From the NCBI RefSeq assembly GCF_015711605.1, contig NZ_JABTEZ010000002.1, forward strand, positions 558,001 through 622,000: DNA of 64,000 nucleotides, given 5' to 3'. Source of the stretch: Planomonospora sp. ID67723. Lineage in GTDB: Bacteria > Actinomycetota > Actinomycetes > Streptosporangiales > Streptosporangiaceae. The notes under the pieces are model-generated. The model had not been told where the DNA came from. It worked only from the letters and a program-made list of their open reading frames with translations, and made no database searches. A program made the position numbers and the translations under genes. This document shows, one piece after another, positions 7,267 through 30,214 of the stretch; the first letter of the stretch is position 1, and every line of letters begins with the position of its first letter.

Positions 7267-7312
7267 TCATCTTCGTGCGTGCGGGGGAAACCGAGCGCAA
7301 TAGCGGAGATGC
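7267..7312. promoter_or_regulatory. Inverted pair of CGCA-N6-RAGATGN elements, divergent promoter 1
   Basis: Site 7267-7283 reads on the minus strand CGCA-CGCACG-AAGATGA and faces the methyltransferase start at 7209. Site 7296-7312 reads on the plus strand CGCA-ATAGCG-GAGATGC and faces the start at 7344. Centres are 29 bp apart. The same oriented element recurs at seven other promoter regions of the cluster. Confidence 0.6.
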
Positions 7313-7343
7313 GGCGCGGAAAAGACGAGTCAACCATGGAGGC

Positions 7344-8771
7344 ATGAAGAACAGGATTCCGATCGAAGTATGGGTCCCCGACCTGACGTTCCCCGGCTGG
7401 ATGGATCGGTGGTATCAGCAGGCCGCCGATTTCGAGAAACTGCACCCCGAATACCAGGTCGTGGTGCACGGCAAGGATTTCTGGCAGCTGCCCAGGCAGG
7501 TCGCGGAGGCCGCTGCGGAAGGACACGTCCCGGCTCTGTCGGAGTACTACTTCTACATGACGCAGGTGGCGCGCGACTCGCTCCAGCAGGACGGCCGCCC
7601 GCTGTTCACCTCGGTGGAGAAGGCCGTCGCCGGGCGCGACGAGGTGCTCGGCGAGCCCGTCGTGCTCGACGACATCATCGCGCCGCTGCGCGACTACTAC
7701 ACGCTGGACGGCGACCTGACGTGCATGCCGAGTGTCGGCACGACGAGCCTGCTGTACGGCAACACCGACCTGCTCAGGCGGGCGGGCGTGGAGAGCCTCC
7801 CGCGGACCTGGCAGGAGGTGGAGGAGGTCTGCGCCAGGGTGGCGGCGTTGAGTGACGGGCCCTCCCACGCGATCACGTGGTCCAACCACGGCACGTTCCT
7901 CCAGCAGGCGCTGGCCACCCAGGGCGGGCTGATCGTGAACGAGCACAACGGCAGGCGGGGCCGGGCCACCACCGTCGACCTGGCCTCGCCCGAGATGCTG
8001 CGCTGGGTGGAATGGGTGCGCGGCCTGCACCGGAGCGGCCACTACTACTACACCGGCAAGATCCCCGACTGGGCGGGCACGCTGAAGGCGTTCGCCGACC
8101 AGGACGTGGCCATCCGGATCTCCTCCTCCAACGACGTCAACTACATGTTCAGGGCGGCCGAGGACAACGGCTTCGGCATCGAGACGGGCATCTTCCCCTA
8201 CGACGAGAGCGTGCCGTACGTGGGCAACGCGATCGCCGGCACCGCGCTGTGGCTGGCGGAGGGGCTGGACGAGGCGACGCGGGAGGGCGCGCTGGCGTTC
8301 CTCATGTACCTGCACAATCCGCGCAACGCGGCGGAGCGCCACAAGGCGAACAGCTTCCTGCCGGTCTCGTACGCCTCGCACGCCCTGCTGGAGGAGGACG
8401 GTTGGTACGACGCCCACCCGCACCACCGGCTGGCCTACGACCACGTCATGCGCTTCCCCACGGGCGGCGCCGGCGTCCCCGCGTCGGAGGGCGCGCTGTT
8501 CGGCGACTTCGCGGGCAACCAGGATGTGATGACCAGGGCGGTCGGCGACGTGCTCGCCCTCGGCGCCGATCCCGCCGAGCGCCTGGCCTTCGCCACGGTG
8601 GAGGCGCAGCAACTGCTCGACGCCTACAACGAGTACGCGCTGGCGTCCGGCTTCCGTGACCCGGAGAACAGTCCTCCGACCAGCCTCAGCGTGGAGGCGT
8701 TCAAGGAGGCGCGGGCGGGCCGCGACTACTCGGCCGCCGACATGGAGGCGGTCGTCAAGCTGCACCGCTGA
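7344..8771 (+). CDS. Extracellular-solute-binding-protein-like protein lacking a signal peptide
   Basis: The 475-residue protein looks like a family-1 sugar ABC solute-binding protein: an early V-W-V-P-D-L-T-F, a F-E-K-L-H-P-E-Y-Q-V-V-V segment, then T-S-L-L-Y-G-N-T-D-L-L-R-R-A-G. It begins M-K-N-R-I-P-I-E-V-W-V-P, with neither a hydrophobic leader nor a lipobox Cys, and no ABC permease or ATPase gene is nearby. GGAGG at 7337-7341 fixes the start close to ATG 7344. It would therefore be cytoplasmic. Possible roles are binding a sugar or pathway intermediate, or an enzyme built on the periplasmic-binding fold. Function is unknown. Confidence 0.75.
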   Translation: MKNRIPIEVWVPDLTFPGWMDRWYQQAADFEKLHPEYQVVVHGKDFWQLPRQVAEAAAEGHVPALSEYYFYMTQVARDSLQQDGRPLFTSVEKAVAGRDEVLGEPVVLDDIIAPLRDYYTLDGDLTCMPSVGTTSLLYGNTDLLRRAGVESLPRTWQEVEEVCARVAALSDGPSHAITWSNHGTFLQQALATQGGLIVNEHNGRRGRATTVDLASPEMLRWVEWVRGLHRSGHYYYTGKIPDWAGTLKAFADQDVAIRISSSNDVNYMFRAAEDNGFGIETGIFPYDESVPYVGNAIAGTALWLAEGLDEATREGALAFLMYLHNPRNAAERHKANSFLPVSYASHALLEEDGWYDAHPHHRLAYDHVMRFPTGGAGVPASEGALFGDFAGNQDVMTRAVGDVLALGADPAERLAFATVEAQQLLDAYNEYALASGFRDPENSPPTSLSVEAFKEARAGRDYSAADMEAVVKLHR

Positions 8772-8778
8772 GCGCGCG

Positions 8779-8816
8779 GAAAGGGCCGCGGACCCGTCGG
8801 GGTCCGCGGCCCTTTC
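8779..8816. terminator. Bidirectional terminator between convergent genes
   Basis: A perfect 17-bp stem (8779-8795 with 8800-8816) and a GTCG tetraloop lie between the convergent stops at 8771 and 8829. Confidence 0.85.
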
Positions 8817-8828
8817 CCGTGGTGAGGC

Positions 8829-10124
8829 TCAGCGGTGCACCGCGGTGAGCTTCTCCAGGGCGGGCACGATCTCGGACGGGCCGGGCCGGTCCAGCCACTC
8901 CTGATGCAGGGCGGCGGCGGCGTCGCGGTAGGAGGGGTTCTCCAGCACCGCGACGATCGAGTCCCTGATCTCCTGCACGGACTGCTTCTGGTGGTCGACG
9001 CGCAGGCCGGCGCCCCGCGACTCGATGTAGGCGAGCGCGGTCTTGGACAGGATGTGCCGTTCGGCCATCTTGCTGTTCTCGCCGTCGGTCACGATGACGC
9101 GCTGCGGTTCGTCCGTGTCGCCGATGAGCTGCGGCAGCCCGGCGGCGACCGAGGCCCAGAACGTGCCGCTGGAGCCGTGGTTGATGCTGGCCGAGCAGGT
9201 CGGCAGGAGCTGGAGCAGCGGGACGTAGTCGACGGTGCGGACGTTGTCGGGGATCGAGGAGATGCCTTCGAGCTGGTCGGCGTTGAGCGTGGCGATCACC
9301 TCCACGTCCAGGTCGGCGACCGCCTCGAAGATCTTCGGCGTGCGCCACTCTCCCTTGTGGTAGGCCCTGGTGGACAGGCCGAGCGACAGTGCCACGCGCG
9401 GTCGGTCCGGCTTGCCGTACAGCCAGGAGGGCTTGACGCCGCCGCCGTTGTAGGGGCTCCAGCGGACGGGCACCGAGGCCAGGTCCTGCGACAGGCGCAT
9501 CTCGCGCGGCAGCGGGTCGATGGTCCACTGGCCGACGAGCAGTTCCCTGTCCACCTCGACGCCGTAGTGCTCGGCGAGCGGGCGCACCGCTCTGGCCAGC
9601 GGGTTGACGGGTGGCGTGGCATGGCCGGCGTACAGCTCCACGGCCCAGCCGCTGTAGTCGGGACCCATCAGCACCCGGGCGTGCGCGGCGCCGCACGCCT
9701 TGGCCGCGACGGCGCCGGCGGGGAACCACGGGTCCCACAGCACCAGGTCGGGCTGCCACGCGCGGGCGAACTCGACCAGGGCCTTGTTCTGCTCGCTCGG
9801 CACCGGCGGCAGGTGGAACCTGACGCCCATGAGGTAGTACTGGAAGAACACGTCCCAGGTGTCGCGCTGGTCCTCGGTCACCCCCAGGGCCGCGGCGAGC
9901 CGCTCCATCTCCTCGGGGTCGGGCGGCAGGTCGTCGCGGACCCACCCGCCGGTGTCGGGCTCGCCGCACGTGACGGCGGTCAGGCCCGCCGCCACGATGT
10001 CGTCGGCCGCACCGGGCGGGCAGGCCACGCAGACCTCGTGCCCGGCCAGTTGCAGGGCCTGCGCGTACGGCACGGCGGGGTAGAGGTGGCACACCTGTGG
10101 CCACACAGTGAGCATGATTCGCAT
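8829..10124 (-). CDS. GT1-family natural-product glycosyltransferase
   Basis: The 431-residue protein is a GT-B fold glycosyltransferase of the antibiotic type. The N-terminus M-R-I-M-L-T-V-W-P-Q-V-C-H-L-Y-P supplies the acceptor-side basic residue. The C-terminal donor domain has I-N-H-G-S-S-G-T-F-W-A-S-V-A-A-G-L-P-Q-L, the conserved nucleotide-sugar-binding signature. Its length matches macrolide and aromatic glycosyltransferases. It is the only glycosyltransferase in the window and so the likely user of the sugar made by the flanking genes. AAGGGAG precedes ATG 10124. It is transcribed from the divergent promoter shared with the epimerase/decarboxylase gene. Confidence 0.9.
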   Translation of the reverse strand: MRIMLTVWPQVCHLYPAVPYAQALQLAGHEVCVACPPGAADDIVAAGLTAVTCGEPDTGGWVRDDLPPDPEEMERLAAALGVTEDQRDTWDVFFQYYLMGVRFHLPPVPSEQNKALVEFARAWQPDLVLWDPWFPAGAVAAKACGAAHARVLMGPDYSGWAVELYAGHATPPVNPLARAVRPLAEHYGVEVDRELLVGQWTIDPLPREMRLSQDLASVPVRWSPYNGGGVKPSWLYGKPDRPRVALSLGLSTRAYHKGEWRTPKIFEAVADLDVEVIATLNADQLEGISSIPDNVRTVDYVPLLQLLPTCSASINHGSSGTFWASVAAGLPQLIGDTDEPQRVIVTDGENSKMAERHILSKTALAYIESRGAGLRVDHQKQSVQEIRDSIVAVLENPSYRDAAAALHQEWLDRPGPSEIVPALEKLTAVHR

Positions 10125-10207
10125 CTAGCGCTCCCTTGCGGAACTCCTGGATAAGTGGACGACACAATGCGCCTAGGGCTCCAGCATCCGGCACGGAAAT
10201 GCGCCGC

Positions 10208-10249
10208 GCATCTCCTGCATTGCGAGTCATCCGGCAAGTCAGGAGGTGC
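10208..10249. promoter_or_regulatory. Inverted pair of CGCA-N6-RAGATGN elements, divergent promoter 2
   Basis: Site 10208-10224 reads on the minus strand CGCA-ATGCAG-GAGATGC, toward the glycosyltransferase. Site 10233-10249 reads on the plus strand GGCA-AGTCAG-GAGGTGC, toward the SDR gene at 10355. The first is identical over all 17 bp to the site at 27853-27869. Confidence 0.6.
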
Positions 10250-10354
10250 GGGAGGGTGCCCTTACACGGTGTTCTTTTCTTTAAGTCACGCCATTTTCAA
10301 GGGGACGCCTTATGCTCATTCACAATTGCACAAGCGCCACGGGGACCGGCTGAC

Positions 10355-11335
10355 ATGGCCGGCGCACGCGTGGTCGTGACCGGCGGCTCGGGTTTCATCG
10401 GCGGGCACCTGGTGGACAAGCTGCTCGCCCGCGGCGACGAGGTGACGGTCTTCGACCGGGAACCCGACCCCCGGGTGCGCACGATCACCGGGGACATCCG
10501 CGACGAGGCACGGCTGGCCGAGGCGATCGGCGCCGGGGTGGACGTGGTGTACCACCTGGCGGCCGAGGTGGGGGTGGACCGCTATCTGACGCGCCCCCTC
10601 GACGTGATCGACGTCAACTTCCAGGGCACCAGGAACGTGCTGGAACGCGCCCACGCGGCCGGCGCCCGCGTGGTGGTGGCCAGCACCAGCGAGGTGTTCG
10701 GCAAGAACCCCGCGGTGCCGTGGGCGGAGGACGCCGACCGGGTGCTCGGCTCCACCGCCGCGGGCCGCTGGACCTACTCCTCCGCCAAGGCCATGTCCGA
10801 GCACCTGACGCTGGCGTTCTGCGCACAGCACGGGCTGGACGCCACGATCGTGCGGTTCTTCAACGCCTACGGCCCTCGCCAGCGGCCCGCCTTCGTGCTC
10901 AGCCGCACCATCCACCGGGCGCTCAACGGCCACCCGCTCGCCCTGTACGACGGCGGCGGGCAGACCCGGTGCTTCACGTTCGTGGAGGACGCGGTGGCGG
11001 GCGCGATGCTGGCCGGCGACAGGGGCGGCGCGGGAGAGGTGTTCAACCTGGGCAGCATGACCGAGACCACCGTGCGGGAGGCGATCACCACCGTGGCGGC
11101 GCTGACCGGGGCGGCGACCGTGGAGGTGGACGCGCGCGCCGCGCTCGGCCCCGCCTACGAGGACGTGCCGCGCCGCGTCCCCGACAGTTCCAAGGCGCGC
11201 CGGCTGCTGGGGTGGACGGCGACGACCTCGCTGGCCGAGGGCGTCGCGCGCACCATCGACTGGGCCAGGGCGAACCCGTGGTGGCTCGCCCAGCCCGACT
11301 CCGGCGTCGCCGTCACCGTCGCCGTCGCGAGCTGA
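10355..11335 (+). CDS. Extended SDR: NDP-sugar epimerase / UDP-glucuronate decarboxylase-like
   Basis: The 326-residue extended short-chain dehydrogenase has T-G-G-S-G-F-I-G for NAD binding, an S-T-S-E-V-F-G catalytic Ser region and Y-S-S-A-K as the Y-x-x-x-K pair. F-N-A-Y-G-P-R and a late R-V-P-D-S-S-K-A-R-R-L-L-G-W support a nucleotide-sugar substrate. The family includes UDP-glucuronate decarboxylases and 4-epimerases. With the 6-dehydrogenase at 26.3 kb, decarboxylation to a UDP-4-keto-pentose is attractive, but 4-epimerisation cannot be excluded. GGGGA at 10341-10345 sets the start at 10355; a long upstream in-frame extension lacks a ribosome site. Confidence 0.8.
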   Translation: MAGARVVVTGGSGFIGGHLVDKLLARGDEVTVFDREPDPRVRTITGDIRDEARLAEAIGAGVDVVYHLAAEVGVDRYLTRPLDVIDVNFQGTRNVLERAHAAGARVVVASTSEVFGKNPAVPWAEDADRVLGSTAAGRWTYSSAKAMSEHLTLAFCAQHGLDATIVRFFNAYGPRQRPAFVLSRTIHRALNGHPLALYDGGGQTRCFTFVEDAVAGAMLAGDRGGAGEVFNLGSMTETTVREAITTVAALTGAATVEVDARAALGPAYEDVPRRVPDSSKARRLLGWTATTSLAEGVARTIDWARANPWWLAQPDSGVAVTVAVAS

Positions 11336-11342
11336 GCGCGCG

Positions 11343-11377
11343 AAAGAGCCTCCGCACCGGCGGTGCGGAGGCTCTTT
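11343..11377. terminator. Bidirectional terminator between epimerase and P450 genes
   Basis: A perfect 16-bp stem (11343-11358 with 11362-11377) is followed by TTTT on the plus strand and preceded by AAA, so it suits both convergent genes. Confidence 0.85.
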
Positions 11378-11385
11378 TCCGTGCT

Positions 11386-12627
11386 TTACCGCACCGCCGC
11401 GGGAACGGGGGCGGTCAGGCGTACCGGGAGCGCCCGGTGCCCGTTCATGATGAAGGTCGGCAGCGGCTGCAGATCCTGCCGGTCCACCGCCAGGTTGAGC
11501 TCGGGGAACCTGGCGAACAGCGACGACAGTCCGATCGTGGCGACCGCCCTGGCGATCGAGGCGCCGAGGCAGTAGTGCGGGCCGTACCCGAACGACAGGT
11601 GCTCCTTGTCCTCGCGGGTGATGTCGAAGCGGCCCGCGTCGGCCCCGTGCAGCGCCGGGTCACGGCCCACGGCCGCGTAGTTGACCAGGATCGGGTCGCC
11701 CTGCGGGATCGTGACGCCGTCGAGGTGGATGTCGGTGACCGCGTACCGCAGCGGCAGGTGCGCCAGCGGCGACTCCACCCGCAGGGTCTCGTCGATCACG
11801 TCGTCCCAGGTGGACCGGCCCGACCTGACCAGTTCGAGCTGCTCGGGGTGCGAGAGCAGCGCGGTGATCGCGTTGTCGAAGAAGTTGATCGTGGTCTCCG
11901 AGCCGGCACCGAGGATCGCGAAGATCGTGTCGGTGAGCTCGACCTCGGACAGCCGCGAGCCGTCCGTGTCGCGCGCCGTCACCAGGTCGGTGGTGATGTC
12001 CTCACCCGGGTTCCTGCGCTTCTCGGCGATGAGCTCGGCCATGGCGCCGCGCCACCCGGCCAGGATGCCCTGGGCCTGCTGCGGGGTGACGGTGGTGTCG
12101 ACCATCATGTCGATGACCTTGGCGGTCGCCGCGCGGGCCTCCTCCGACATGCCGATCAGGTCCGCGACCAGCATGGCGGGCAGCGGGTAGGCGAAGCGCT
12201 CGCGCAGGTCGACCACCTCGCCGGGCTCCGTGGCCGCGAGCGCGTCGAGCAGCTGGCCGGTGAGCGCGACGATGCGCGGCTTGATCGCCTCGGTTCGGCG
12301 CGGCGTGAACGCCTTGCCGACCAGCCGGCGCAGCCGGACATGGTCCTTGCCGTACGCGGTCACCATGTTGTCCATGGCGATCCAGCTGATCATCTCCCAG
12401 TCGGGCGGGATCTCCCCGTTGATGAACGCGGGCCAGTGATTGCGCGCGCTCTTGGTGACGTTGGGCTCGGCCAGCAGCTGCCTGACCGCCTCGTAGGTGT
12501 TGACGGACCAGGCGAGCACTCCACCGGGGAGCTCCACCTGGACGGCGTGGCCCCCAGCGCGCAGGATGTCGGTTTCCGCATGGATGTCACGGCCGGTGGG
12601 GTCGAGAACGGGGCAGCGCATTTCCAC
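11386..12627 (-). CDS. Cytochrome P450 (bacterial class, CYP107-like)
   Basis: This 413-residue P450 has the I-helix oxygen-binding motif G-A-G-S-E-T-T, the K-helix E-T-L-R and the haem loop F-G-Y-G-P-H-Y-C-L-G with axial Cys353. Its size and motifs match soluble actinomycete P450s that hydroxylate or couple natural products using ferredoxin electrons. No ferredoxin is adjacent; the nearest is in the separate P450 locus at 40.2 kb. The GTG start at 12627 follows GGGAGA. It is the last gene of an acyltransferase-exporter-P450 operon and ends at the terminator at 11.35 kb. Confidence 0.92.
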   Translation of the reverse strand: MEMRCPVLDPTGRDIHAETDILRAGGHAVQVELPGGVLAWSVNTYEAVRQLLAEPNVTKSARNHWPAFINGEIPPDWEMISWIAMDNMVTAYGKDHVRLRRLVGKAFTPRRTEAIKPRIVALTGQLLDALAATEPGEVVDLRERFAYPLPAMLVADLIGMSEEARAATAKVIDMMVDTTVTPQQAQGILAGWRGAMAELIAEKRRNPGEDITTDLVTARDTDGSRLSEVELTDTIFAILGAGSETTINFFDNAITALLSHPEQLELVRSGRSTWDDVIDETLRVESPLAHLPLRYAVTDIHLDGVTIPQGDPILVNYAAVGRDPALHGADAGRFDITREDKEHLSFGYGPHYCLGASIARAVATIGLSSLFARFPELNLAVDRQDLQPLPTFIMNGHRALPVRLTAPVPAAVR

Positions 12628-12663
12628 TGTGGTCTCCCATTGATCTCATCAGTTCTGACGGGG

Positions 12664-14235
12664 TCAGGCGTTGGCCGACTCCGGCTCTTCCGCGGACTCT
12701 TCCGCGGTTTGCTCCTGCTGTCCGGTCGGCGGCACCTTCCGGAGGGTGATCAGTGCGAAAACGGCCAGGCACAGGGCGAGCACCGCGCTGACGCCCGTGG
12801 CGGCGGTCACCGACGTGGTGAACGCCTCACGGGCGGCGGTGAGCAGTTCGGCGGCCACGGGCGCGGACACCTGCCCCGCCGCGTTGATCGCGCCCGCGAT
12901 CCCCTCGCCGGCCGTGTCCGCGACCGCGGGCGGCAGGGAGGAGGGCAGAGCCCCGGAGATCTGGGCGCTGTAGACGGCGGTGCCGACACTGCCCAGCGTG
13001 GCGACGCCGAGCGCGATGCCGAGCTCGCCGCCGGTCTCCGAGACCGCGGAAGCGGATCCCGCCTGCTCCGGGGGCACCGAGCTGAAGATCAGCGCGTTGC
13101 CGAGCGCGCCCATCGGCCCCGCGCCGACGGAGCCGATGACCAGGCCGGTGAGCACCAGGCCGACCCCCGAGGAGACGTCGAGCGTGCTCAGCACGAAGTA
13201 GCCGATCGCGATGACGACCAGGCCGCCCGCGATGACGTACCCGGGGCGCAGCTTCCGCGCCACCACGGGCGCCAGGAGCACGCTCGCGATCGTCGCCGCG
13301 GTGGAGGGCACCACCCACAGCCCCGTCGCCAGCGGCGACAGGCCGACCACGGTCTGCAGGAACATGCTGACCAGGAAGAAGCTGCCGTTGACGACGCCGC
13401 CGAGCACCATGATCGCCACGGCGGCCCGGAAGATCGGCCGCTTGAACAGCCGCATGTCGAGCAGCGGCGACTCCAGCTTGCGCTGCCGCTGGACGAACGC
13501 CAGGCCGAAGGCGAGCCCCGCCAGGACGGCCACGACGTACCACGGCTGCCAGCCGTGCTTGGCCAGCTCCTTGAGCCCGTAGATGAACGGCAGGATGGCC
13601 GCGAGCGACAGCGCGACGCTGGGCAGGTCGAGCCGTCCGCCGTCGGGGTCGCGGTGCTCGGGCAGGAGCACGGGCCCCGTCGCGAGCAGCAGCGCCATGA
13701 CCGGTACGGCCAGCAGGAACACCGAGCCCCACCAGAAGTTCTCCAGCATCAGCCCGCCGACCACGGGGCCGAGCGCGATGCCGCCCATGAAGCAGGCCAT
13801 CCACACCGAGATCGCGGTGCCCATCTGCTGCGGATCCTTGAAGATGGTGACGATCAGCGACATCGTCGACGGCATGATCGTGGCGCCGGCGATCCCCAGC
13901 AGCGCACGCGAGACGATGAGCAGCTCCGCGGTGGAGGAGTAGGCGGCCAGCACCGACGCGACCGTGAAGGCGGTGGCGCCCACGAGCAGCAGCCTGCGCC
14001 GCCCGATGAGGTCTCCGAGCCGGCCCATGGTGACCAGGAGCCCGGCGATGACGAAGCCGTAGATGTCGGTGATCCACAGCTGCTGCGTGAGCGTGGCGCC
14101 GAGCTCCGAGCTGAGGTGCGGCAGGGCCAGGTAGAGCACGCTCATGTCGATCGAGAGCAGCAGCGTGGGCAGGGCCAGGATGGCCAGCGCCAGCCACTCC
14201 CGCGTCCCGGCCTTGGCCGGTGTGTTCACGTCCAT
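12664..14235 (-). CDS. DHA2-family (14-TMS) MFS drug exporter
   Basis: The 523-residue protein has about 14 hydrophobic segments, the MFS motif G-R-L-G-D-L-I-G-R-R-R between TM2 and TM3, and motif C-like A-L-G-P-V-V-G-G in TM5, which marks antiporters. The acidic tail (residues ~500-523) is cytoplasmic. QacA/EmrB-type members export cationic or aromatic antibiotics, so this is the best candidate for product export and self-resistance. GGAAGGA precedes ATG 14235. Only 13 nt separate it from the upstream acyltransferase. Confidence 0.9.
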   Translation of the reverse strand: MDVNTPAKAGTREWLALAILALPTLLLSIDMSVLYLALPHLSSELGATLTQQLWITDIYGFVIAGLLVTMGRLGDLIGRRRLLLVGATAFTVASVLAAYSSTAELLIVSRALLGIAGATIMPSTMSLIVTIFKDPQQMGTAISVWMACFMGGIALGPVVGGLMLENFWWGSVFLLAVPVMALLLATGPVLLPEHRDPDGGRLDLPSVALSLAAILPFIYGLKELAKHGWQPWYVVAVLAGLAFGLAFVQRQRKLESPLLDMRLFKRPIFRAAVAIMVLGGVVNGSFFLVSMFLQTVVGLSPLATGLWVVPSTAATIASVLLAPVVARKLRPGYVIAGGLVVIAIGYFVLSTLDVSSGVGLVLTGLVIGSVGAGPMGALGNALIFSSVPPEQAGSASAVSETGGELGIALGVATLGSVGTAVYSAQISGALPSSLPPAVADTAGEGIAGAINAAGQVSAPVAAELLTAAREAFTTSVTAATGVSAVLALCLAVFALITLRKVPPTGQQEQTAEESAEEPESANA

Positions 14236-14248
14236 CGAGGTCCTTCCT

Positions 14249-15424: not shown

Positions 15425-15483
15425 GTCGGGCTCCTTTCTCTCGGAATGCCCTGCTCCATCTTTCGTACGGCCATCTGCCCGTC

Positions 15484-15500
15484 GCATCTCGCCACGTGCG
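15484..15500 (-). promoter_or_regulatory. Single CGCA-N6-GAGATGC element upstream of the acyltransferase operon
   Basis: On the minus strand it reads CGCA-CGTGGC-GAGATGC, matching the fixed positions exactly, 60 nt before GTG 15424. Only one copy is present, and only one gene direction is served here. Confidence 0.6.
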
Positions 15501-15530
15501 GACTTACAGATGAGCAGCTCGCCGGCCCGC

Positions 15531-15598
15531 GGCACGGCTCACGAGGGCACGGCTCACGAGGGCACGGCTTGCAGGGGTACGGCTTACAGGGGCACGGA
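15531..15598. repeat. 15-bp tandem minisatellite (four copies plus a partial)
   Basis: Unit GGCACGGCTCACGAG occurs at 15531-15545 and 15546-15560 (identical), with diverged copies at 15561-15575 and 15576-15590 and a partial copy to 15598. It runs over the stop codon of the minus-strand SDR gene (15584-15586) and sits upstream of the next operon. Confidence 0.9.
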
Positions 15599-21872: not shown

Positions 21873-21894
21873 GCACCCGCTTCCCGTACCGTCC

Positions 21895-22629: not shown

Positions 22630-22641
22630 ACCCTCCCACGC

Positions 22642-22658
22642 CGCATTTGGCAAGAAAT
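22642..22658 (+). promoter_or_regulatory. Degenerate cluster element upstream of the ligase operon
   Basis: It reads CGCA-TTTGGC-AAGAAAT, 97 nt before ATG 22755. CGCA and spacing are kept, but the right half is poor. Confidence 0.3.
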
Positions 22659-22754
22659 TGGCACAAACCTGTCATCGGGCCCCATCTTGCTGCCCGCTCC
22701 ACGCCTCGCTTCGCCACGGACCGCCAGGCACCGTGAGAGAAGAAGGAGGCACCC

Positions 22755-24257
22755 ATGAATTCCCTGAACATCGCGGAGCGGTTCCTCGAAAGGAACGACG
22801 GTGACAGGACCGCGCTCATCACCCCATCGGGCCGGCTCAGCTACGCGGACCTGCGATCGCTGGCCGCCAGGACCGGCAACGCGCTGCGCGCCCTGGGGGT
22901 TCGCCGCGGCGACCGCGTCCTGATCTGCCTCAGCGACGGTCCCGAGTTCGTCGCCACGTGGTACGGCGCGCAGCTCATCGGCGCGGTCACCGCCGAGGTC
23001 TACACCTATCTCCAGGCCAAGGACTACCGCTACTTCCTCGACTACGCCCAGCCCCGCGTGGTCGTCACGGACACCGCCGCGCTCGACGGGCTGCGCGCGG
23101 CGGGGGCGCGCGACCTCCTGGTGGCCGGCGTGCCGGAGCACCGGCTCCTGCCCGGCGAGCGGCACTTCGGCTCGACGGTCGGCGCCCAGAGCGACGCGCT
23201 GGACCCGGTCCCCGTCGAGGCCGGCGACGTGGCGCTGTGGAAGTTCACCACGGGCCGCTCGGGCGCGCCGCGCGCCTGCGTGCTGCCCGCCAGGAGCCCG
23301 CACGCGAGCTTCGAGGCGTACGCCAGGGGCGTGCTCGGCCTCAGCCGGGACGACGTGGTGCTGCCGGTGCCGAAGCTGTTCTTCGGCTACGCGCGTGACC
23401 TGACGGCGCTGTTCCCGTTCGGCGTGGGCGCGGCGGGGATCGTCTTCCCCGAGCGGAGCACGCCGGAGCGCATCTTCGAGCTGATCGCCGAGCACCGGCC
23501 CACGATCCTGGTCAACGTGCCCACCATGATGAGCGCCATGCTCGCCCACCCCGACGCCGCCCGCCAGGACCTCAGCAGCCTGCGCGTGTGCGTCTCGGCC
23601 GGCGAGGCGCTGCCCGCCGAGCTGCACCGCAGGTGGCTGGACACCTTCGGCGTCGAGGTGGCCGACGGGCTGGGCTCCTCCGAGGCGTACCACATCTTCC
23701 TGTCCAACCGCCCGGGCCGCAGCCGGGCCGGCAGCCTCGGCACCGCGGTGCCCGGCTACCGCCTGCGCGTCGTGGACGAGCGCGGCGGGCCGGTGCCGGA
23801 CGGCGAGGTGGGCCGCCTGGAGATCACCGGCGAGACCGCGGCGCTGGAGTACTGGCAGGACCCGGTCAAGTCGGCCGCCACCTTCGTGGCCCCGAACACC
23901 GTGCGCTCGGGCGACCTGGTGAGCAGGGACGCCGACGGTTTCTTCCACTATCACGGCCGCGTTGACGACCTGCTGAAGGTGGGGGGAGTGTGGGTGGCGC
24001 CCACCGAGATCGAGAACTGCCTGCTCGGCCACCGGGCGGTGGCCGACTGCGCGGTGGTGGCCTACCGGGCGGACGGGCTGGTCCTGCCGCGCGCGTACGT
24101 GGTGGCGGCGGCGCCCTTGACGGCGCAGGAGGTGAAGGACTACGTGCGCGCGCGATTGGCGCCGCACAAGTATCCCAGGGATGTGATGTTCGTGGACGCG
24201 CTGCCGCAGACGGCTTCCGGCAAGGTGGACAGGCGAGCCCTGGAGGCGGTGGCATGA
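22755..24257 (+). CDS. Aryl-acid AMP ligase (benzoate/anthranilate-CoA ligase type)
   Basis: The 500-residue ANL-superfamily protein resembles benzoate-CoA ligases in length and in its N-terminus (N-I-A-E-R-F-L-E-R-N). Core motifs present are D-G-L-G-S-S-E (A5), S-G-D-L (A7), H-G-R-V-D-D-L-L-K (A8) and the A10 Lys in T-A-S-G-K-V-D-R. The A3 P-loop is unusual: T-T-G-R-S-G-A-P-R-A-C in place of the common S-G-[ST]-T-G-x-P-K-G, so its Lys is lost. The expected product is an anthraniloyl-AMP passed to CoA or to the carrier protein at 30.3 kb. GGAGG precedes the start, and its stop overlaps the dioxygenase ATG. Confidence 0.85.
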   Translation: MNSLNIAERFLERNDGDRTALITPSGRLSYADLRSLAARTGNALRALGVRRGDRVLICLSDGPEFVATWYGAQLIGAVTAEVYTYLQAKDYRYFLDYAQPRVVVTDTAALDGLRAAGARDLLVAGVPEHRLLPGERHFGSTVGAQSDALDPVPVEAGDVALWKFTTGRSGAPRACVLPARSPHASFEAYARGVLGLSRDDVVLPVPKLFFGYARDLTALFPFGVGAAGIVFPERSTPERIFELIAEHRPTILVNVPTMMSAMLAHPDAARQDLSSLRVCVSAGEALPAELHRRWLDTFGVEVADGLGSSEAYHIFLSNRPGRSRAGSLGTAVPGYRLRVVDERGGPVPDGEVGRLEITGETAALEYWQDPVKSAATFVAPNTVRSGDLVSRDADGFFHYHGRVDDLLKVGGVWVAPTEIENCLLGHRAVADCAVVAYRADGLVLPRAYVVAAAPLTAQEVKDYVRARLAPHKYPRDVMFVDALPQTASGKVDRRALEAVA

Positions 24258-25051
24258 ACGGCGCCGCGCTCGCCCCGGGAACACACGTGACCTACTCCTC
24301 CTACCTGGAGATCGACCGGCTGCTCGACGCGCAGCGCCCGCACTCGCGCGCGCACGACGAGATGATGTTCATCGTCGTGCACCAGGTCTATGAACTGTGG
24401 TTCAAGCTGCTGCTGCACGAGCTGGCCGGCCTGCAGCAGCGCCTGGAGGCCGGTGACAGCGGCCCGGCGCTGCACACGCTGCGGCGTTGCCTGTCCGTGC
24501 TCCGGGTGGCCGTCGACCAGATGGACGTCATGGACACGCTGACGCCTGCCCAGTTCGCAGGCTTCCGCCGCTGCCTGGGCTCCGCGAGCGGCGCGCAGTC
24601 CGCGCAGTTCCGCGAGCTGGAGGCGGTGCTGGGAGCGCGTGACCGCCTCGCGCTGGAGGCCTACCAGGAAGGCAGCGCCGAACGGCTGCGCATCGAGGCG
24701 GCCATGGAGCGGCCGTCCCTGCTCGACTCCTTCCTCGTCTACCTGTCGTCGCAGGGCTACCCGGTCCCCGCCGAGGTGCTGCGCAGGAATCCCGCCCTGC
24801 CGTTCGAGGCCACCGCGCCGCTGCGCGAGGTGCTCGTGCAGGTCAACCGCGACGACCTGGTCGCCGGACAGGTCGCGGAGGGCCTCCTCGACCTGGACCA
24901 GCTGCTGCAGGAATGGCGCTACCGGCACAGCGTCATGGTGCAGCGCATGATCGGGGCGCGGCGCGGCACCGGCGGGACCTCCGGCGCCGCCCACCTGCGC
25001 GACACCTGTGTCCCGGCCTTCCCGGTGCTGTGGGAGGTGCGTGGCGCATGA
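24254..25051 (+). CDS. kynA: Tryptophan 2,3-dioxygenase
   Basis: The 265-residue protein has the family signature H-D-E-M-M-F-I-V-V-H-Q-V-Y-E-L-W-F-K near residues 35-55, with the active-site His, Phe, Tyr and Arg positions. The C-terminal haem-ligand His is in Y-R-H-S-V-M-V, followed by G-T-G-G-T-S-G. It oxidises L-Trp to N-formylkynurenine. Length is typical of bacterial TDOs. It is embedded between the ligase and kynureninase by ATGA overlaps at both ends, so the three gene products are made together and the pathway points to anthranilate supply for the product, not to NAD synthesis. Confidence 0.95.
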   Translation: MNGAALAPGTHVTYSSYLEIDRLLDAQRPHSRAHDEMMFIVVHQVYELWFKLLLHELAGLQQRLEAGDSGPALHTLRRCLSVLRVAVDQMDVMDTLTPAQFAGFRRCLGSASGAQSAQFRELEAVLGARDRLALEAYQEGSAERLRIEAAMERPSLLDSFLVYLSSQGYPVPAEVLRRNPALPFEATAPLREVLVQVNRDDLVAGQVAEGLLDLDQLLQEWRYRHSVMVQRMIGARRGTGGTSGAAHLRDTCVPAFPVLWEVRGA

Positions 25052-26253
25052 CCGCCGACCTGGCCGCGTCCCTCGCTCCGCACTACACGATGTTCCGCGT
25101 CTCGGAACGCCTGCTGCTCACCGGCCACTCGCACCAGGCCTGGCCGGACGTCGCGCTCGACGGCCAGCTGGAGGCGTTCCAGGACGCCGCGCTCGACGTG
25201 GACGACAAGTGGGCGCGCGCCCTGGACAAGGCCGAGGACGTGCGGGCCGGCTTCCGGCGCGTGCTCGGCGACCCCGCCGCCGAGCTGGCCCTCGGCTCCA
25301 ACACCCACGAACTGGTGATCCGCTTTCTGTCCTCGCTGCCGCTCGGCGACCGGCCCAGGCTGGTGACCTCCGACGGCGAGTTCCACACGCTGCGCCGCCA
25401 GCTCGCCCGGCTGGAGGAGGAGGGCCTGGAGCTGGTGCGCGTGCCGGCGGAGCCCGTCGACACCCTGTCCGCGCGGCTGGCGGCGGAGGTCGACGACAGG
25501 ACCGCCGCCGTGCTGGTCTCCGCCGTGATGTACGAGACCGCCAAGATCGTGCCGGATCTCGGCACGCTCGCGGACGCGTGTGAGCGCAGAGGCGCGCAGT
25601 TGCTCGTCGACGCCTACCACGCGCTCGGCGTCGTGCCCTTCTCCGCCGCGGCGATCCCCTCCGCCTGGATCGTCGGCGGCGGGTACAAGTACCTCCAGCT
25701 CGGCGAGGGGAACTGCTTCCTGCGGGTCCCGCCGCAGGCCACGCGGCTCCGCCCGGTGATCACCGGCTGGTTCGCCGAGTTCGCCGAGCTGGCCGCCGAC
25801 GCGGGGCCCGGCACGGTGGCCTACCCGCCGGGCGCGCAGGCCTTCTCCGGGGCCACCTACGACCCGACCAGCCACTACCGGGCGGCCCGCGTGTTCGACT
25901 TCTTCGCCGAGCACGGCCTGACGCCCGATCTGCTGCGCCGCGTCTCCGAGCGCCAGCTCGACAGGCTGCGCGCGCGCTTCGACGCCATGGACACCGGCGG
26001 CCTGATCAGCAGGGACACCGGCACGCCGCCGTCGGGCATCGCCGGATTCCTCGCACTGCGATCGCCGCACGCGGCGCGGCTTCGTGACGGGCTGGCCGCG
26101 CGGGGCGTGCTCGCCGACAGCCGCGGCCACATGCTGCGGCTCGGTCCCGCACCCTACCTGTCGGACGAGCAGCTCGACGCCGCGATGGACGCGCTGGAGG
26201 CCGAGCTGGCCGGCGTGCGCGCCGCCCGGCCGCAGCTCGCGGGCTCACGGTGA
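25048..26253 (+). CDS. kynU: Kynureninase
   Basis: The 401-residue fold-type I PLP enzyme has the Schiff-base Lys (K214) in G-G-G-Y-K-Y-L, preceded by the ring-nitrogen Asp in L-L-V-D-A-Y-H. A substrate/PLP region F-H-T-L-R-R-Q lies near residue 115. Sequence and length fit kynureninases, which cleave kynurenine to anthranilate plus alanine, or 3-hydroxykynurenine to 3-hydroxyanthranilate. A class V aminotransferase is the alternative, but the genetic coupling to tryptophan dioxygenase supports kynureninase. Whether the ring is hydroxylated before or after this step is not evident. Confidence 0.88.
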   Translation: MTADLAASLAPHYTMFRVSERLLLTGHSHQAWPDVALDGQLEAFQDAALDVDDKWARALDKAEDVRAGFRRVLGDPAAELALGSNTHELVIRFLSSLPLGDRPRLVTSDGEFHTLRRQLARLEEEGLELVRVPAEPVDTLSARLAAEVDDRTAAVLVSAVMYETAKIVPDLGTLADACERRGAQLLVDAYHALGVVPFSAAAIPSAWIVGGGYKYLQLGEGNCFLRVPPQATRLRPVITGWFAEFAELAADAGPGTVAYPPGAQAFSGATYDPTSHYRAARVFDFFAEHGLTPDLLRRVSERQLDRLRARFDAMDTGGLISRDTGTPPSGIAGFLALRSPHAARLRDGLAARGVLADSRGHMLRLGPAPYLSDEQLDAAMDALEAELAGVRAARPQLAGSR

Positions 26254-26263
26254 CGGACACCGG

Positions 26264-26298
26264 AAAGGCCGCCGCCGATCGGATCGGCGGCGGCCCTT
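26264..26298. terminator. Bidirectional terminator between kynureninase and sugar dehydrogenase
   Basis: Near-perfect 14-bp arms (26267-26280 with 26282-26295) with flanking AAA and CTT sit in the convergent gap. Confidence 0.75.
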
Positions 26299-26345
26299 CT
26301 CCCTCGCCGGGCCGGCGGGTCAGCGGGTCAGCCCTCCGGCGCCCT

Positions 26346-27692
26346 TCAGCGCCCGACTCCGAGGTAGTCGTAGCCCAGCCGGCGCAGCTCGGCGATCTTG
26401 TCCTTGCTGTAGTAGGCCCGTCCGTCCAGGACGAGGCACGAGCCGGCCACGGGCAGCTCCGCGAAGTCGATCTCCTTGAACTCCTCGTGCAACGCCATGA
26501 CGGCGAGGCAGTCGGCATCCCGGACGGCCTCCAGCAGGTCCGGGGAGGGCCGGACGCCCACGACGGCCTCGGCCTGGAGGGAGTCCACCAGCGGATCGTA
26601 GACGCGGACCGTGGCGCCGGCCTTCGTCAGGGTCGTGACGACGGCCTCCACCGGCGTCGCCCGCAGGTCGCCCGTGTTGTTCTTGAACGCCGCGCCCAGC
26701 ATGGCGATCGTGGACGTGGCGGGATCCTTGCCGAGCCTCAGCAGCCCGTCGATGATCAGTTGTGCCGTGTACTCCGGCATCTCCAGATTGACCTCGCGGC
26801 CCGTCGGCGCGGTGAAGATCTCCAGGCCGCGCTGCCGGGCGGAGTGCCAGACCATCCACGGGTCCTTGACCAGGCACGAGCCACCCACGCCCACGCTGGG
26901 CAGCAGGATGTTGACCTTCCCTTTGCCCTTGGGGACGGTGTTGGCCGCCGAGATCACATCCAGGACGTCCACGTCGAACAGGGCGCAGAACTTGGCGAGC
27001 TCGTTGGCGAGCGCGATGTTGAGGTCGATCCACCAGTTGTCGGCCAGCTTGACGATCTCCGCGGATTCGGGCGAGTCCAGGGCGATCGTCTCGACCCCGA
27101 GCGCGCGGTGCCAGAAGTCGGCCGCGTCCCGGGTGCTGTCGGCGTCCATGCCTCCGACCACGATCGGCAGGGAGCGCAGCTCACGCAGGGCCGTTCCCTC
27201 GGCGAACCGCTCGGGTGTGAAGGCGAGCCCGAAGTGCTCGCCGCAGACGAGCCCGCTCTGCTGCAGCAGGGGCAACACGAACTCCCGGGTCGTGCCCGGC
27301 GGCACGGTGCTCTTGAGGATCAGCAGGTGTCCCTCGCGCAGATGGTGGCTCACCTCCAGGCACGCCTCCCTGAGCTGGTGGTCCACCAGGGAGCCGTCGG
27401 CGCGGACCGGAGTGCCCACCGCGATCAGCACGACGTCGGCGGCGCGGACGGCGGAGTAGTCGGTGGTCACCCGGAGCCGGCCGGCCGCCATTCCGCCCAG
27501 CAGCAGGTCGGCCAGCCCGTCCTCCTGGTACCGGCAATGCCCTGCGGTCAGCTCGTCGACGAGCTGGACGTCGGTGTCCACCCCGATGACGTCCCAGCCG
27601 CGACCGGCCAGCGCCGCCGCGAAGCAGGAGCCGACGTAACCGAGGCCGATGATCGCCACTTTCGGGTCTCGACTGTCAGATAGAAAATTCAT
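26346..27692 (-). CDS. UDP-sugar 6-dehydrogenase (UDP-glucose / ManNAc dehydrogenase family)
   Basis: The 448-residue protein has the N-terminal NAD domain (I-I-G-L-G-Y-V-G), the catalytic Cys in G-V-G-G-S-C-L-V-K-D-P near residue 250, and the C-terminal G-A-A-F-K-N-N-T-G-D-L-R-A-T-P motif. It oxidises C-6 of a UDP-hexose twice, giving a uronate. Within this cluster UDP-glucose to UDP-glucuronate is the simplest reading; a WecC-like activity is the alternative. ATG 27692 follows GGGAGAG. It is divergent from the E1-type dehydratase across a paired regulatory element, which suggests joint control of sugar genes. Confidence 0.85.
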   Translation of the reverse strand: MNFLSDSRDPKVAIIGLGYVGSCFAAALAGRGWDVIGVDTDVQLVDELTAGHCRYQEDGLADLLLGGMAAGRLRVTTDYSAVRAADVVLIAVGTPVRADGSLVDHQLREACLEVSHHLREGHLLILKSTVPPGTTREFVLPLLQQSGLVCGEHFGLAFTPERFAEGTALRELRSLPIVVGGMDADSTRDAADFWHRALGVETIALDSPESAEIVKLADNWWIDLNIALANELAKFCALFDVDVLDVISAANTVPKGKGKVNILLPSVGVGGSCLVKDPWMVWHSARQRGLEIFTAPTGREVNLEMPEYTAQLIIDGLLRLGKDPATSTIAMLGAAFKNNTGDLRATPVEAVVTTLTKAGATVRVYDPLVDSLQAEAVVGVRPSPDLLEAVRDADCLAVMALHEEFKEIDFAELPVAGSCLVLDGRAYYSKDKIAELRRLGYDYLGVGR

Positions 27693-27801
27693 GGCTCTCC
27701 CAACGAGAGGAATGCGGACTCGATCCACCGATTCTTCGTACGGCCATTGACCGCCCCGGGCCTTTTCCTTTTACAAGCACATCCCCAGTGCCCGCCGTAT
27801 C

Positions 27802-27869
27802 GCATCTTTTGACTTGCCGGAAAGCGGCTGCCGGCCGCCGGCTCATTTCCGTCGCAATGCAGGAGATGC
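27802..27869. promoter_or_regulatory. Inverted pair of CGCA-N6-RAGATGN elements, divergent promoter 4
   Basis: Site 27853-27869 (plus) reads CGCA-ATGCAG-GAGATGC toward the dehydratase. Site 27802-27818 (minus strand) reads GGCA-AGTCAA-AAGATGC toward the dehydrogenase. The shared 17-mer with 10208-10224 and a nearby shared 11-mer (TGACTTGCCGG) argue for common control. The rest of the 375-nt gap shows nothing else clear. Confidence 0.6.
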
Positions 27870-28067
27870 ACGAGCCGCGGCCGGGGACGATGCTGTGGTG
27901 GTACGGCCAGCAGAGTTGATCTTTCATGGCGAGGATGCCGACCGGGGATCCGGCTACACGGGCGGGGCCAGGTGGGCGGACGGCGCGTCCGCCGGCGCCG
28001 GCGCCGTGATCGCTCGTGCGCCCGGAAGAACCTCGGCGGTGTCGACCCGATGAGTAAGGGGCCGGAG

Positions 28068-29372
28068 ATGAATGAGCACAAGGCGCTGATCCTGGACGAG
28101 GTCCGCAAGTATCACCAGGACGTTGAGACCAGCGGGGAGTTCGTGCCCGGTGTCACGGAGATCTGGCCGACCGGTGCGGTGCACGACGTGGAGGACCGTG
28201 TGGCGCTGGTCGAGGCGGCACTCGAACTGCGGGTCGCGGGCGGATCCAGGGCACGGAGGTTCGAGTCCCTCTTCGCGCGCAAAATGAAGCGGCGCAAGGC
28301 GTTCCTGGCCAACTCGGGCTCCTCGGCCAATCTGCTGGCGCTCTCCGCGCTGACCTCGCACCGGCTGCAGGACGCGCGGCTGCGGCCGGGCGATGAGGTG
28401 ATCACCGTCGCGGCGGCCTTCCCGACCACGGTGAACCCGATCCTGCAGAACGGCCTGGTCCCGGTCTTCGTGGACGTCGAGCTGGGCACCTACAACCCGA
28501 CCGTGGACATGGTGGCGCAGGCGATCGGGCCCCGGACCCGGGCGATCATGATCGCGCACACGGTCGGCAACCCCTTCCCGGTGGCCGAGATGGCCCAGCT
28601 CGCGGCGGAGCACGAACTGTTCCTGATCGAGGACAGCTGCGATGCCGTCGGAGCCACCTACGACGGTGAGCCGGTGGGCACCTTCGGCGATCTCACCACC
28701 GTGAGCTTCTACCCGGCGCACCACATGACGATGGGGGAGGGCGGCTGCGTCCTCACCTCGAACCTGTTGCTCGCGCGGATCGTCGAGTCGCTGCGCGACT
28801 GGGGCAGGGACTGCTGGTGCGAGCCGGGCGAGAGCAACACCTGCCTCAAGCGCTTCGACTACCAGATGGGCACGCTGCCCCACGGCTACGACCACAAGTA
28901 CATCTACTCGCACGTCGGCTACAACCTGAAGATCACCGAGCTGCAGGCCGCGCTCGGCCTGAGCCAGCTCGACAAGCTCGACGACTTCTGCGCCACCCGC
29001 CGGCGCAACTGGCGGCGGTTGCGCGAGGGACTGGAGGGCGTGCCCCACCTGCTGCTCCCCGAGGCGACCCCGCGCAGCGATCCGAGCTGGTACGGCTTCG
29101 TCGTCACGGTCGACCCGGAGGCGCCGTTCGGCGCCGGGGAGCTGGTGTCCTTCCTGGAGGACCGGAAGATCGGCACGCGCCGGCTGTTCGCCGGCAACCT
29201 GGTCCGGCACCCCGCCTACGCGGACCAGAACTACCGGATCGTGGGAGAACTCGCCAACACCGACATCATCACCACCCAGACGTTCCACGTCGGCGTCTAT
29301 CCGGGACTGACCGACGAGATGATCGACTACGTCGTCGACTCCTTCAAGGACTTCGTCCGGGCGCAGGGGTGA
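28068..29372 (+). CDS. E1-type PMP/[2Fe-2S] NDP-4-keto-sugar 3-dehydratase
   Basis: The 434-residue protein belongs to the DegT/DnrJ/EryC1 fold but has F-Y-P-A-H-H-M-T-M-G-E-G-G, where the PLP Lys is replaced by His (H218). That substitution defines 3-dehydratases rather than aminotransferases. Four cysteines follow the exact spacing C-x57-C-x-C-x7-C (C191, C249, C251, C259), the [2Fe-2S] ligands of E1 (AscC/RfbH) enzymes. Such proteins remove the C-3 hydroxyl of a 4-keto-6-deoxy NDP-sugar with help from a reductase. No E3-like reductase gene is in the window. AAGGGG supports ATG 28068; ATG 28050 is possible. Confidence 0.88.
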   Translation: MNEHKALILDEVRKYHQDVETSGEFVPGVTEIWPTGAVHDVEDRVALVEAALELRVAGGSRARRFESLFARKMKRRKAFLANSGSSANLLALSALTSHRLQDARLRPGDEVITVAAAFPTTVNPILQNGLVPVFVDVELGTYNPTVDMVAQAIGPRTRAIMIAHTVGNPFPVAEMAQLAAEHELFLIEDSCDAVGATYDGEPVGTFGDLTTVSFYPAHHMTMGEGGCVLTSNLLLARIVESLRDWGRDCWCEPGESNTCLKRFDYQMGTLPHGYDHKYIYSHVGYNLKITELQAALGLSQLDKLDDFCATRRRNWRRLREGLEGVPHLLLPEATPRSDPSWYGFVVTVDPEAPFGAGELVSFLEDRKIGTRRLFAGNLVRHPAYADQNYRIVGELANTDIITTQTFHVGVYPGLTDEMIDYVVDSFKDFVRAQG

Positions 29373-29419
29373 CCGCCCGGCGGACGCCGGGCCGGTGACC
29401 GCCCCGCGCCGCGACAGCA

Positions 29420-29466
29420 GACCAGCGCTTTCCCCGCCGGGTGCCCCGGCGGGGAAAGCGCTGGTC
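29420..29466. terminator. Strong bidirectional terminator
   Basis: A perfect 21-bp stem (29420-29440 with 29446-29466) with a 5-nt loop sits between the convergent dehydratase and SnoaL-like genes. Confidence 0.88.
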
Positions 29467-29576
29467 CCGTCCCGCCCGGCCGGCTGCGGCCCGGTCCTCG
29501 GCGGTACGGGCGGGACGGGGCCCGCCGGATCCGGCCGTCGCCGTTGACCGCCGGATCCGGTTGACCGGTCCGCGGG

Positions 29577-29987
29577 TCAGGCGGCGGCGGGAGTGTTCTG
29601 GTATGCGGTGATCAGCCACTGCCCGTCCTGCTTGGCCAGCACCCAGGTGGCGCGGACGGCCCGCTCGGGTGCGACCTCGGTCTCGTCACCGGTCAAGACG
29701 CCGCCCCGGGTGACCAGCACGGCGGCGTCCGGGCCGAGGAGCTTCACCGAGACGGGCGCGCCGGTCACGCGGGTCCCCTTGTAGGGACCCGCATAGGCCA
29801 TCCCCATGAACGTGCGGATGTTCTCACGACCCGTGACGAAGATGTCGCCCGGAAGGATCATGGTGGCGTCCTCCGTGAAGACCTCGGCGAAGGCGTCACC
29901 GTCATTGCGGGCCCACGCGGCGATGATGCGCTGGGGCACCCCGCCGATGGCCGTCGTGTCGTCGGTGGCGGTCGGTGTAGGGCTCAT
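29577..29987 (-). CDS. SgcJ/EcaC-type NTF2-fold protein
   Basis: The 136-residue protein shows the cone-shaped NTF2 pattern of the SgcJ/EcaC group: I-I-A-A-W-A-R-N-D-G-D-A-F-A-E-V-F-T-E-D-A in two stretches, then I-L-P-G-D-I-F-V-T-G-R-E-N-I. Members occur in enediyne and other clusters and as general stress-related proteins; few have a proven reaction. It could act as a hydrolase, cyclase or binding protein. The gene is monocistronic, with an oriented cluster element 117 nt upstream, which argues that it belongs to the pathway rather than being a bystander. Confidence 0.75.
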   Translation of the reverse strand: MSPTPTATDDTTAIGGVPQRIIAAWARNDGDAFAEVFTEDATMILPGDIFVTGRENIRTFMGMAYAGPYKGTRVTGAPVSVKLLGPDAAVLVTRGGVLTGDETEVAPERAVRATWVLAKQDGQWLITAYQNTPAAA

Positions 29988-30103
29988 GCTTCATTCCTTC
30001 GTTCAGCGACGGGAACAGGGAAGGGCGTGAACCGGTGGGGCACGGGCGACGGCCCGGATCGCCGGTCCTCCCCTTCGCATCGTGATCGCCGGGTGCCCGC
30101 CGT

Positions 30104-30214
30104 GCATCTCTTGGTGTGCGGCGCCCGGCGGAGCCGCCGCCCGGTGACGCCGCGAGCCTGTCCCGGCCCGGTCGCGTCGGCCGGACGGCGGCTGTCTCGC
30201 ACTCTCGGAGATGT
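30104..30214. promoter_or_regulatory. Inverted pair of CGCA-N6-RAGATGN elements, divergent promoter 5
   Basis: Site 30104-30120 (minus strand CGCA-CACCAA-GAGATGC) faces the SnoaL-like gene. Site 30198-30214 (plus strand CGCA-CTCTCG-GAGATGT) faces the carrier-protein operon. Nothing else clear is seen in the 336-nt gap. Confidence 0.6.

Follow-up and report, generated by a model that had tools for sequence, protein, structure and literature searches.

The control of enediyne gene clusters, which are large and many-branched, is poorly mapped, though AraC-type regulators of such clusters are known. How the operons of one such cluster are switched on together is the question raised by a 64,000-nucleotide stretch of the 8.34 Mb genome of Planomonospora sp. 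ID67723 (C2:558001-622000, hereafter the window; negative coordinates lie to the left of its start), in which a short oriented element, described in an initial annotation as CGCA-N6-RAGATG, recurs before genes of the first 30 kb. We find that the element consists of a box, SGCAHTNCNGRAGATGC, followed 19-20 nt downstream by a -10 hexamer (NANNNT), that it is concentrated in a single enediyne cluster, and that it tracks across genomes with the gene for an AraC-family protein encoded in that cluster. Comparison of the sequences makes it very probable that the element is the operator of this AraC/XylS-family protein, an activator with class II geometry that would co-activate most operons of the cluster; one protein probably switches on the whole enediyne pathway.

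In scans of the whole genome, with the backwards pattern as control (for matrix scans, the reversed sequence), CGCAN6RAGATG gave 21 exact matches against 7 in the control; eight fall in the 23 kb between 7,267 and 30,214, and one lies just left of the window. The pattern GCAN6RAGATGC likewise gave 21 matches (control 10), with 12 between -47.3 and +30.1 kb. For 12 of 21 matches in a 95 kb stretch the binomial p is about 1e-18, and on these counts the observation is real, far beyond chance. Box and -10 together gave 13 + 10 = 23 matches in the genome, 15 of them in the cluster, and none in the control. A profile/covariance model search of the genome returned four matches at E<=10, all in the cluster, from a model too short for significance. 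The motif at background frequency in unrelated promoters, the outcome that the initial annotation had set against its own proposal, was not seen in these scans.

Alignment of 22 sites refined the box to SGCA(A/C/T)TNCAGRAGATGC and revealed a second signal downstream. Seven other clusters supply 72 sites with a matrix score of at least 15; the first base of NANNNT falls at offset 36 in 22 of these and at offset 37 in 39 (61/72), as against 0-5 sites at every other offset from 18 to 69. The same -10 accompanies 20 of the 23 sites in the cluster of Planomonospora, 62 of 75 sites scoring >=14 in five further clusters (the reversed sequence gives 4 sites), and 151 of 183 such sites pooled over 18 other clusters, counts that are inflated by shared descent among close relatives such as Planobispora; the pooled tally left out six regions, the own one and those of G323, G384, G151, G317 and G392. 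By position the hexamer consensus is GACGAT, where A2 and T6 are fixed by definition and G replaces the first T in 97 of 151. This hexamer accounts for the GATGC-like word that the initial annotation had noted 18-23 nt downstream of several copies. The sites also avoid genes: in 11 clusters, with 74% of their sequence called as coding, 97 of the 117 sites scoring >=16 fall in no called open reading frame (ORF). Between eight orthologous promoters of Planomonospora and Planobispora the core GCA+RAGATG is identical at 72/72 positions, compared to 68-80% outside the 17-mer, a contrast biased toward a conserved core because the pairs were chosen for both copies scoring.

The cluster to which the sites belong is far larger than its visible part. 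About 95 kb long, it occupies positions 8..31872 of the window and reaches up to 64 kb leftwards, so that the region first marked is the right third only of the regulon. The 60 kb adjoining the window (stretches L001-L003) encode an enediyne-type polyketide synthase (KS-AT-KR-DH, 2208 aa), a 4HBT thioesterase, a flavin reductase, an UnbV-type protein, a P450, a chorismate-using synthase with an isochorismatase, a non-ribosomal peptide synthetase, an aromatic amino acid lyase/mutase-type protein, an HpaB-type hydroxylase and PaaA/PaaC-type oxygenase subunits. Further left, L019 holds cassette genes of the DUF1702 and UnbV types. The window contributes sugar genes, a P450, an MFS exporter, acyltransferases, a carrier protein, CoA ligases, a tryptophan dioxygenase and a kynureninase-like protein. 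Taken together, these genes form one enediyne cluster, with the polyketide synthase, thioesterase and cassette proteins that identify this class. The gene content also hints at two routes to an anthranilate-type acid within one cluster, one at 22755-26253 of the window (tryptophan dioxygenase, kynureninase-like and benzoate-CoA-ligase-like proteins) and one at L002:11641-14186 (the chorismate synthase/isochorismatase pair).

The sites of the cluster span -64368, upstream of the cassette, to +30198. A matrix scan found 24 places scoring >=13.5, of which 22-23 were kept, at or near promoters; a match at -2569 (score 15.6), in coding sequence and without a -10, was taken as chance. The left-hand sites are at -544, -6095/-6122, -8554/-8570, -16501, -24807, -34254, -39561 (weak, with no NANNNT), -47262 and -64368. 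The one at -47262 lies inside the 3' end of a sigma factor gene, and that at -34254 falls early within an ORF called as a hydrolase, which may start later as its Pfam domain begins only at residue 260. The statement that no copies occur beyond about 30 kb holds inside the window, bar scattered low-scoring matches; to the left, sites continue as far as -64.4 kb.

Three DNA-binding proteins were recognised in the cluster: an AraC-family protein, a protein with a LuxR-type helix-turn-helix (P0002; GerE match 6.9e-6), which we read as TrmB-like, and an extracytoplasmic function (ECF)-type sigma factor. The AraC-family gene lies about 49 kb left of the window (L001:10117-10884 on the minus strand, relative -49883 to -49116), in line with the prediction that the regulator would be found on that side, and also occurs in homologous clusters with the motif. 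Its product is 255 aa long from an ATG that the Planobispora orthologs also use, belongs to the AraC/XylS family with two helix-turn-helix motifs (Pfam HTH_18 2.7e-21, HTH_AraC 8.3e-18), and is present in one copy at E<=1e-30 in its genome. The best solved relative of its DNA-binding domain is RamA (1.6e-12), followed among 17 sequences by MarA, Rob, SoxS and AdpA (3w6v). Both helix-turn-helix motifs are closely similar in 22 aligned proteins, even among those with an overall identity of no more than 31-37%. Structure prediction for the Planobispora ortholog, from two near-identical sequences, was unusable (mean pLDDT 37).

Does the motif follow this gene into other genomes? The first homologous clusters came from seven of the eight other genomes with the AraC protein at E<=1e-60; G362, the second Planobispora, was left out, and 20 kb of its AraC contig were looked at as L028. 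All seven clusters carry the enediyne synthase, thioesterase and cassette, and all seven encode the AraC protein (50-84% identity); they hold 82 sites scoring >=14, compared to 9 in the reversed sequence. Every other gene of the Planomonospora cluster that has a homolog in each of the seven codes for an enzyme or a cassette protein, which leaves the AraC protein as the only common candidate seen. These clusters, carrying motif and AraC gene alike, thus argue for the earlier suggestion that one activator may serve the whole cluster.

Wider samples point in the same direction. Of 394 genomes of the class, 18 have the AraC protein (E<=1e-30), 18 the cassette marker (E<=1e-40) and 12 both. Among the six genomes with the marker alone, G189, G215, G384, G391 and G392 encode a weaker homolog of the AraC protein (29-33%) in the stretch examined, and G323 shows none there; the six with AraC alone are G019, G073, G112, G269, G293 and G317, two of which were fetched. 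In a separate draw of 61 genomes of the family, the median density of GCAN6RAGATGC is 2.67 per Mb with the AraC protein (n=11 at E<=1e-70, own genome included) and 1.26 without (n=50; one-sided p 7e-6), though the backwards control also differs somewhat (1.36 versus 0.97). Seven further genomes (G436, G417, G401, G419, G414, G398 and G430) were taken from the ten others at E<=1e-70, after leaving out G315 and G250 (already used) and G408 (too fragmented), and neighbourhoods were fetched for five of the seven, the five further clusters counted above for their -10. With the pattern narrowed from GCAN6 to GCAHN5 after the -10 offset analysis, 58 of their 145 GCAHN5RAGATGC matches lie within 70 kb of the AraC gene, compared to about 2.5 expected, and such matches occur in 7/7 genomes. 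In G269, where no enediyne cassette was found, the gene for a 42% identical AraC protein has two sites with a -10 within 6 kb. In G215, G391, G189, G275 and G338 (AraC protein 31-37% identical) the strongest or only site stands directly before the AraC gene and shares its orientation; in G151 a weak site (14.3, with a -10) occupies this position. Such placement suggests that the AraC protein may activate its own gene in these distant genomes.

On the strength of this pattern we infer physical binding of the AraC protein to the box, and activation rather than repression. The two helix-turn-helix motifs would recognise the elements GCA and RAGATG, which lie on the same face of the DNA at a distance of about one turn; which helix contacts which half may be assigned by analogy with the family. 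The box is oriented, asymmetric and of two elements one turn apart, and it stands 19-20 nt before NANNNT, the architecture of a class II site with a predicted start position. If the -10 is set at -12 to -7, the 17-mer would lie at about -48 to -32 and replace the -35 element, while the -10 itself (GACGAT, without the first T) is weak; since the box takes the place of the -35 and the -10 is weak, RNA polymerase would depend on the activator at boxed promoters, from transcription starts that are likewise predicted. Divergent gene pairs would use two back-to-back boxes, one for each promoter, and one protein would turn on most operons of the cluster together.

Could another protein of the cluster read the element? 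The initial annotation had considered an alternative sigma factor, and a 192-aa ECF-type sigma is indeed encoded near the AraC gene (L001:12240-12818 on the plus strand, relative -47.76 kb; Sigma70_r2 1.6e-12, Sigma70_r4_2 3.1e-12), so that the element might be its promoter. However, searches of fetched stretches of 60-120 kb (tblastn, E 1e-6 or 1e-4) found no homolog of it in G250, G016, G143, G277, G417 or G398, which have 7-23 sites each; in these stretches the motif stands without a detected cognate sigma gene. The usual ECF spacer is 16-17 nt. The gap between box and -10 is longer than this, the near-invariant GCA lies a full turn further upstream, and NANNNT is a -10 of the housekeeping type; a sigma as the reader is very unlikely. 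We regard as improbable, too, that the element is bound by P0002 or by a regulator encoded elsewhere on the chromosome and not seen here, for instance one resembling AdpA. P0002 is encoded inside the cluster and has homologs in G299, G315, G250, G401 and G436, but the stretches fetched from G291, G016, G143, G277, G417 and G398 yielded none; five of these stretches lack a detected homolog of both P0002 and the sigma and still hold 14 (G016), 15 (G143), 7 (G277), 20 (G417) and 10 (G398) sites. Absence from such site-rich stretches led us to reject both proteins as common readers. AdpA is itself AraC-type, and its DNA-binding domain is among the matches above, yet a chromosomal regulator alone would not explain the pile-up of the motif around the AraC gene in 7/7 further genomes, an argument weakened by the fact that the AraC gene also marks the cluster. 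Given that no site precedes the AraC gene here, the sigma and P0002 may instead be candidates for turning that gene on.

That the boxes are repressor operators, or that the 17-mer and a downstream GATGC word form a SARP-like direct repeat, is extremely improbable. Some -10 hexamers (GATGCT, GACGAT) do look like the AGATG end of the box, and the initial annotation had been reminded of direct-repeat activator sites. In the downstream word, however, only A2 and T6 are fixed, which fits a -10; its constant offset of 19-20 nt rules out the direct repeat, the box lies upstream of the -10 and not over it, and RamA, MarA, SoxS and Rob, which are among the closest relatives of solved structure, are known as activators. 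Several observations weigh against an AraC-type activator as the common reader. Of the 23 places in the genome that match box and -10 together, eight are not in the cluster, including four on C4, and in the Planobispora comparison the -10 zone is no better conserved than its surroundings (41/56). In this genome no site was found at several places where one might be anticipated, namely before the genes for the sigma, the TrmB-like protein, a metallophosphatase or the AraC protein itself, before the aromatic-acid operon at -25 kb (minus strand), before the genes at -16.25 (plus), 4.2 (minus) and 16.4 kb (minus), or before the prephenate dehydrogenase gene. Elsewhere, G384 has an AraC homolog (31%) and a cassette without a site (matches versus control, 0/0), G317 an AraC homolog (38%) without a site (0/0), and G151 (37%) and G392 (29%) give 4/2 and 2/2. 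Presence of the AraC gene is also confounded with presence of the cluster, as only the distant G323 has cassette-like genes without an AraC homolog (3/3).

Within the window, all ten strong sites of the initial annotation were read out at the positions given for them, eight with the literal CGCA...AGATG and two, at 10233 and 27802, departing from it. Their orientation and the spacing of divergent pairs (25-94 bp) were described correctly. Of the three weaker copies, those at 20522 (score 14.5) and 20558 (23.0) both have a -10; the plus-strand copy at 22642..22658 (CGCATTTGGCAAGAAAT) was dropped because it scores 5.8 and has no -10 at the proper place, which leaves 12 of the 13 sites. Gene starts here are mechanical calls, and Pfam was run on part of the cluster genes; the called starts at 7182, 10136, 15535 and 20571 are probably too far upstream.

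From left to right, the minus-strand box CGCACGCACGAAGATGA (7267..7283, -10 GATGCT) lies upstream of a methyltransferase gene (5665-7248, minus strand), and the plus-strand box CGCAATAGCGGAGATGC (7296..7312, -10 AACCAT) upstream of a solute-binding-protein gene that ends at 8771, for which the in-frame ATG at 7344 fits better than 7182. At the next divergent pair, CGCAATGCAGGAGATGC (10208..10224, minus, -10 GATGCT) lies before a glycosyltransferase gene (8829-10124), and GGCAAGTCAGGAGGTGC (10233..10249, plus), with no NANNNT at the usual offset, precedes an NAD-epimerase/dehydratase gene ending at 11335 with an in-frame ATG at 10355. Box CGCACGTGGCGAGATGC (15484..15500, minus, -10 AAAGAT) is upstream of an acyltransferase gene (boundary 14249, in-frame GTG start at 15424), and CGCATTTCAGAAGATGA (16398..16414, plus, -10 GACCCT) upstream of an FAD oxidoreductase gene (16472-17875). 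The weaker box AGCACTTTCGGAGAAGA (20522..20538, minus, -10 CATCTT) faces a hydrolase gene (19645-20430), and CGCAATTCAGGAGGTGA (20558..20574, plus, -10 GACCAT) an Eis-like acetyltransferase gene ending at 21872, with an in-frame ATG at 20634. Upstream of a UDP-glucose-dehydrogenase-like gene (26346-27728) lies GGCAAGTCAAAAGATGC (27802..27818, minus), again without NANNNT at the usual offset; its partner at 27853..27869 (plus, -10 GATGCT), before a DegT-family gene (27972-29372), has the same 17 bp as the box at 10208, as had been noticed. The last pair comprises CGCACACCAAGAGATGC (30104..30120, minus, -10 CACGAT), upstream of a SnoaL-like gene (29577-29987), and CGCACTCTCGGAGATGT (30198..30214, plus, -10 GACGAT), upstream of a carrier-protein gene (30300-30599) and the HsaA-like gene that follows it. 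The prephenate dehydrogenase gene (31942-33150, minus strand) stands at the right border, and has homologs near the clusters of G315, G250, G143 and G277.

Twenty-one matches outside the cluster were examined in this genome, and six have a -10, four of these on C4. Three boxes with a -10 at C4:265-273 kb (L021:10286-10302 on the minus strand, 10515-10531 and 17723-17739 on the plus strand) flank an operon that encodes AfsA-like, ICMT-like, PPDK-like, UbiA-like and nitroreductase proteins; the 47 kb examined there contain no homolog of the cluster AraC protein. Homologs of the AfsA-like operon occur in only 2 other genomes of the 61 (G430 40%, G428 31%), with no site plus -10 near them in either, and the operon was rejected as a general member of the regulon. 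Another box with a -10 (L025:2001-2017, minus strand; C4:736.4 kb) lies upstream of a chorismatase (FkbO/Hyg5-like) and AMP-ligase pair, and the promoter stretch at C4:272.7 kb resembles this one, with the same box. Two identical GGCAAGATCGAAGATGC matches without a -10 (L020:5472, plus, and 9821, minus) are inverted, 4.3 kb apart, and apparently belong to one repeated sequence. We tentatively raise the possibility, which we consider doubtful, that the deeply conserved promoter code GCA-N6-RAGATGC-N19/20-SANNNT and its AraC-type reader constitute a transferable module that controls enediyne clusters in two or more actinobacterial families, and that in this strain the regulon may reach in trans to two loci on C4, the AfsA-like operon (A-factor-type signal synthesis; C4:265-273 kb) and the chorismatase/CoA-ligase pair (C4:736 kb). 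If true, this reach would link the enediyne pathway to a signalling operon.

With a readable box and a fixed -10, sequence alone suffices to assign promoters, correct start codons and recognise cluster borders and satellite genes, and the single-activator model can be put to a direct test. The box can also help to find such clusters, since in G398 and G414 copies were seen to crowd on a single contig before the search for the AraC gene led to the same contig.

How does this system compare with those already described? The class II activators AraC, RhaS and XylS have 17-bp half-sites next to or over the -35, at promoters with paired half-sites; the half-site by the -35 and the spacing class are shared here, but there is usually one box per promoter. 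MarA, SoxS, Rob and RamA have a related DNA-binding domain and an asymmetric box starting with GCA, the marbox (gcannwwntgnnaaa), which at class II promoters overlaps the -35 in the forward orientation (PMC12052159); at such a promoter RamA contacts sigma region 4 and the alpha C-terminal domain (PMC8811837). The Planomonospora box shares GCA with the marbox consensus but has AGATG instead of AAA (RAGATG as the second element), it serves one dedicated pathway and not a scattered stress regulon, and the AraC protein has a C-terminal part without an assigned fold; by analogy the site may work like a class II MarA-type site, yet it is not a marbox. Closer in setting are SgcR2 of the C-1027 cluster (PMC2657911) and TnmR7 of the tiancimycin cluster (PMC9464397), AraC-type regulators encoded in enediyne clusters, which we liken to the present protein by description and not by sequence. 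Deletion of tnmR7 abolished production, and no soluble TnmR7 could be obtained for gel shift (PMC9464397); the available portions of these two papers give no operator for either regulator. The main text of PMC5181780 does not contain 'regulator', 'AraC' or 'promoter', and in the open-access literature we found no operator or regulon motif for enediyne AraC-type regulators. As far as we could see, the system is of a known kind, with a box, a promoter grammar and a spread that are new.

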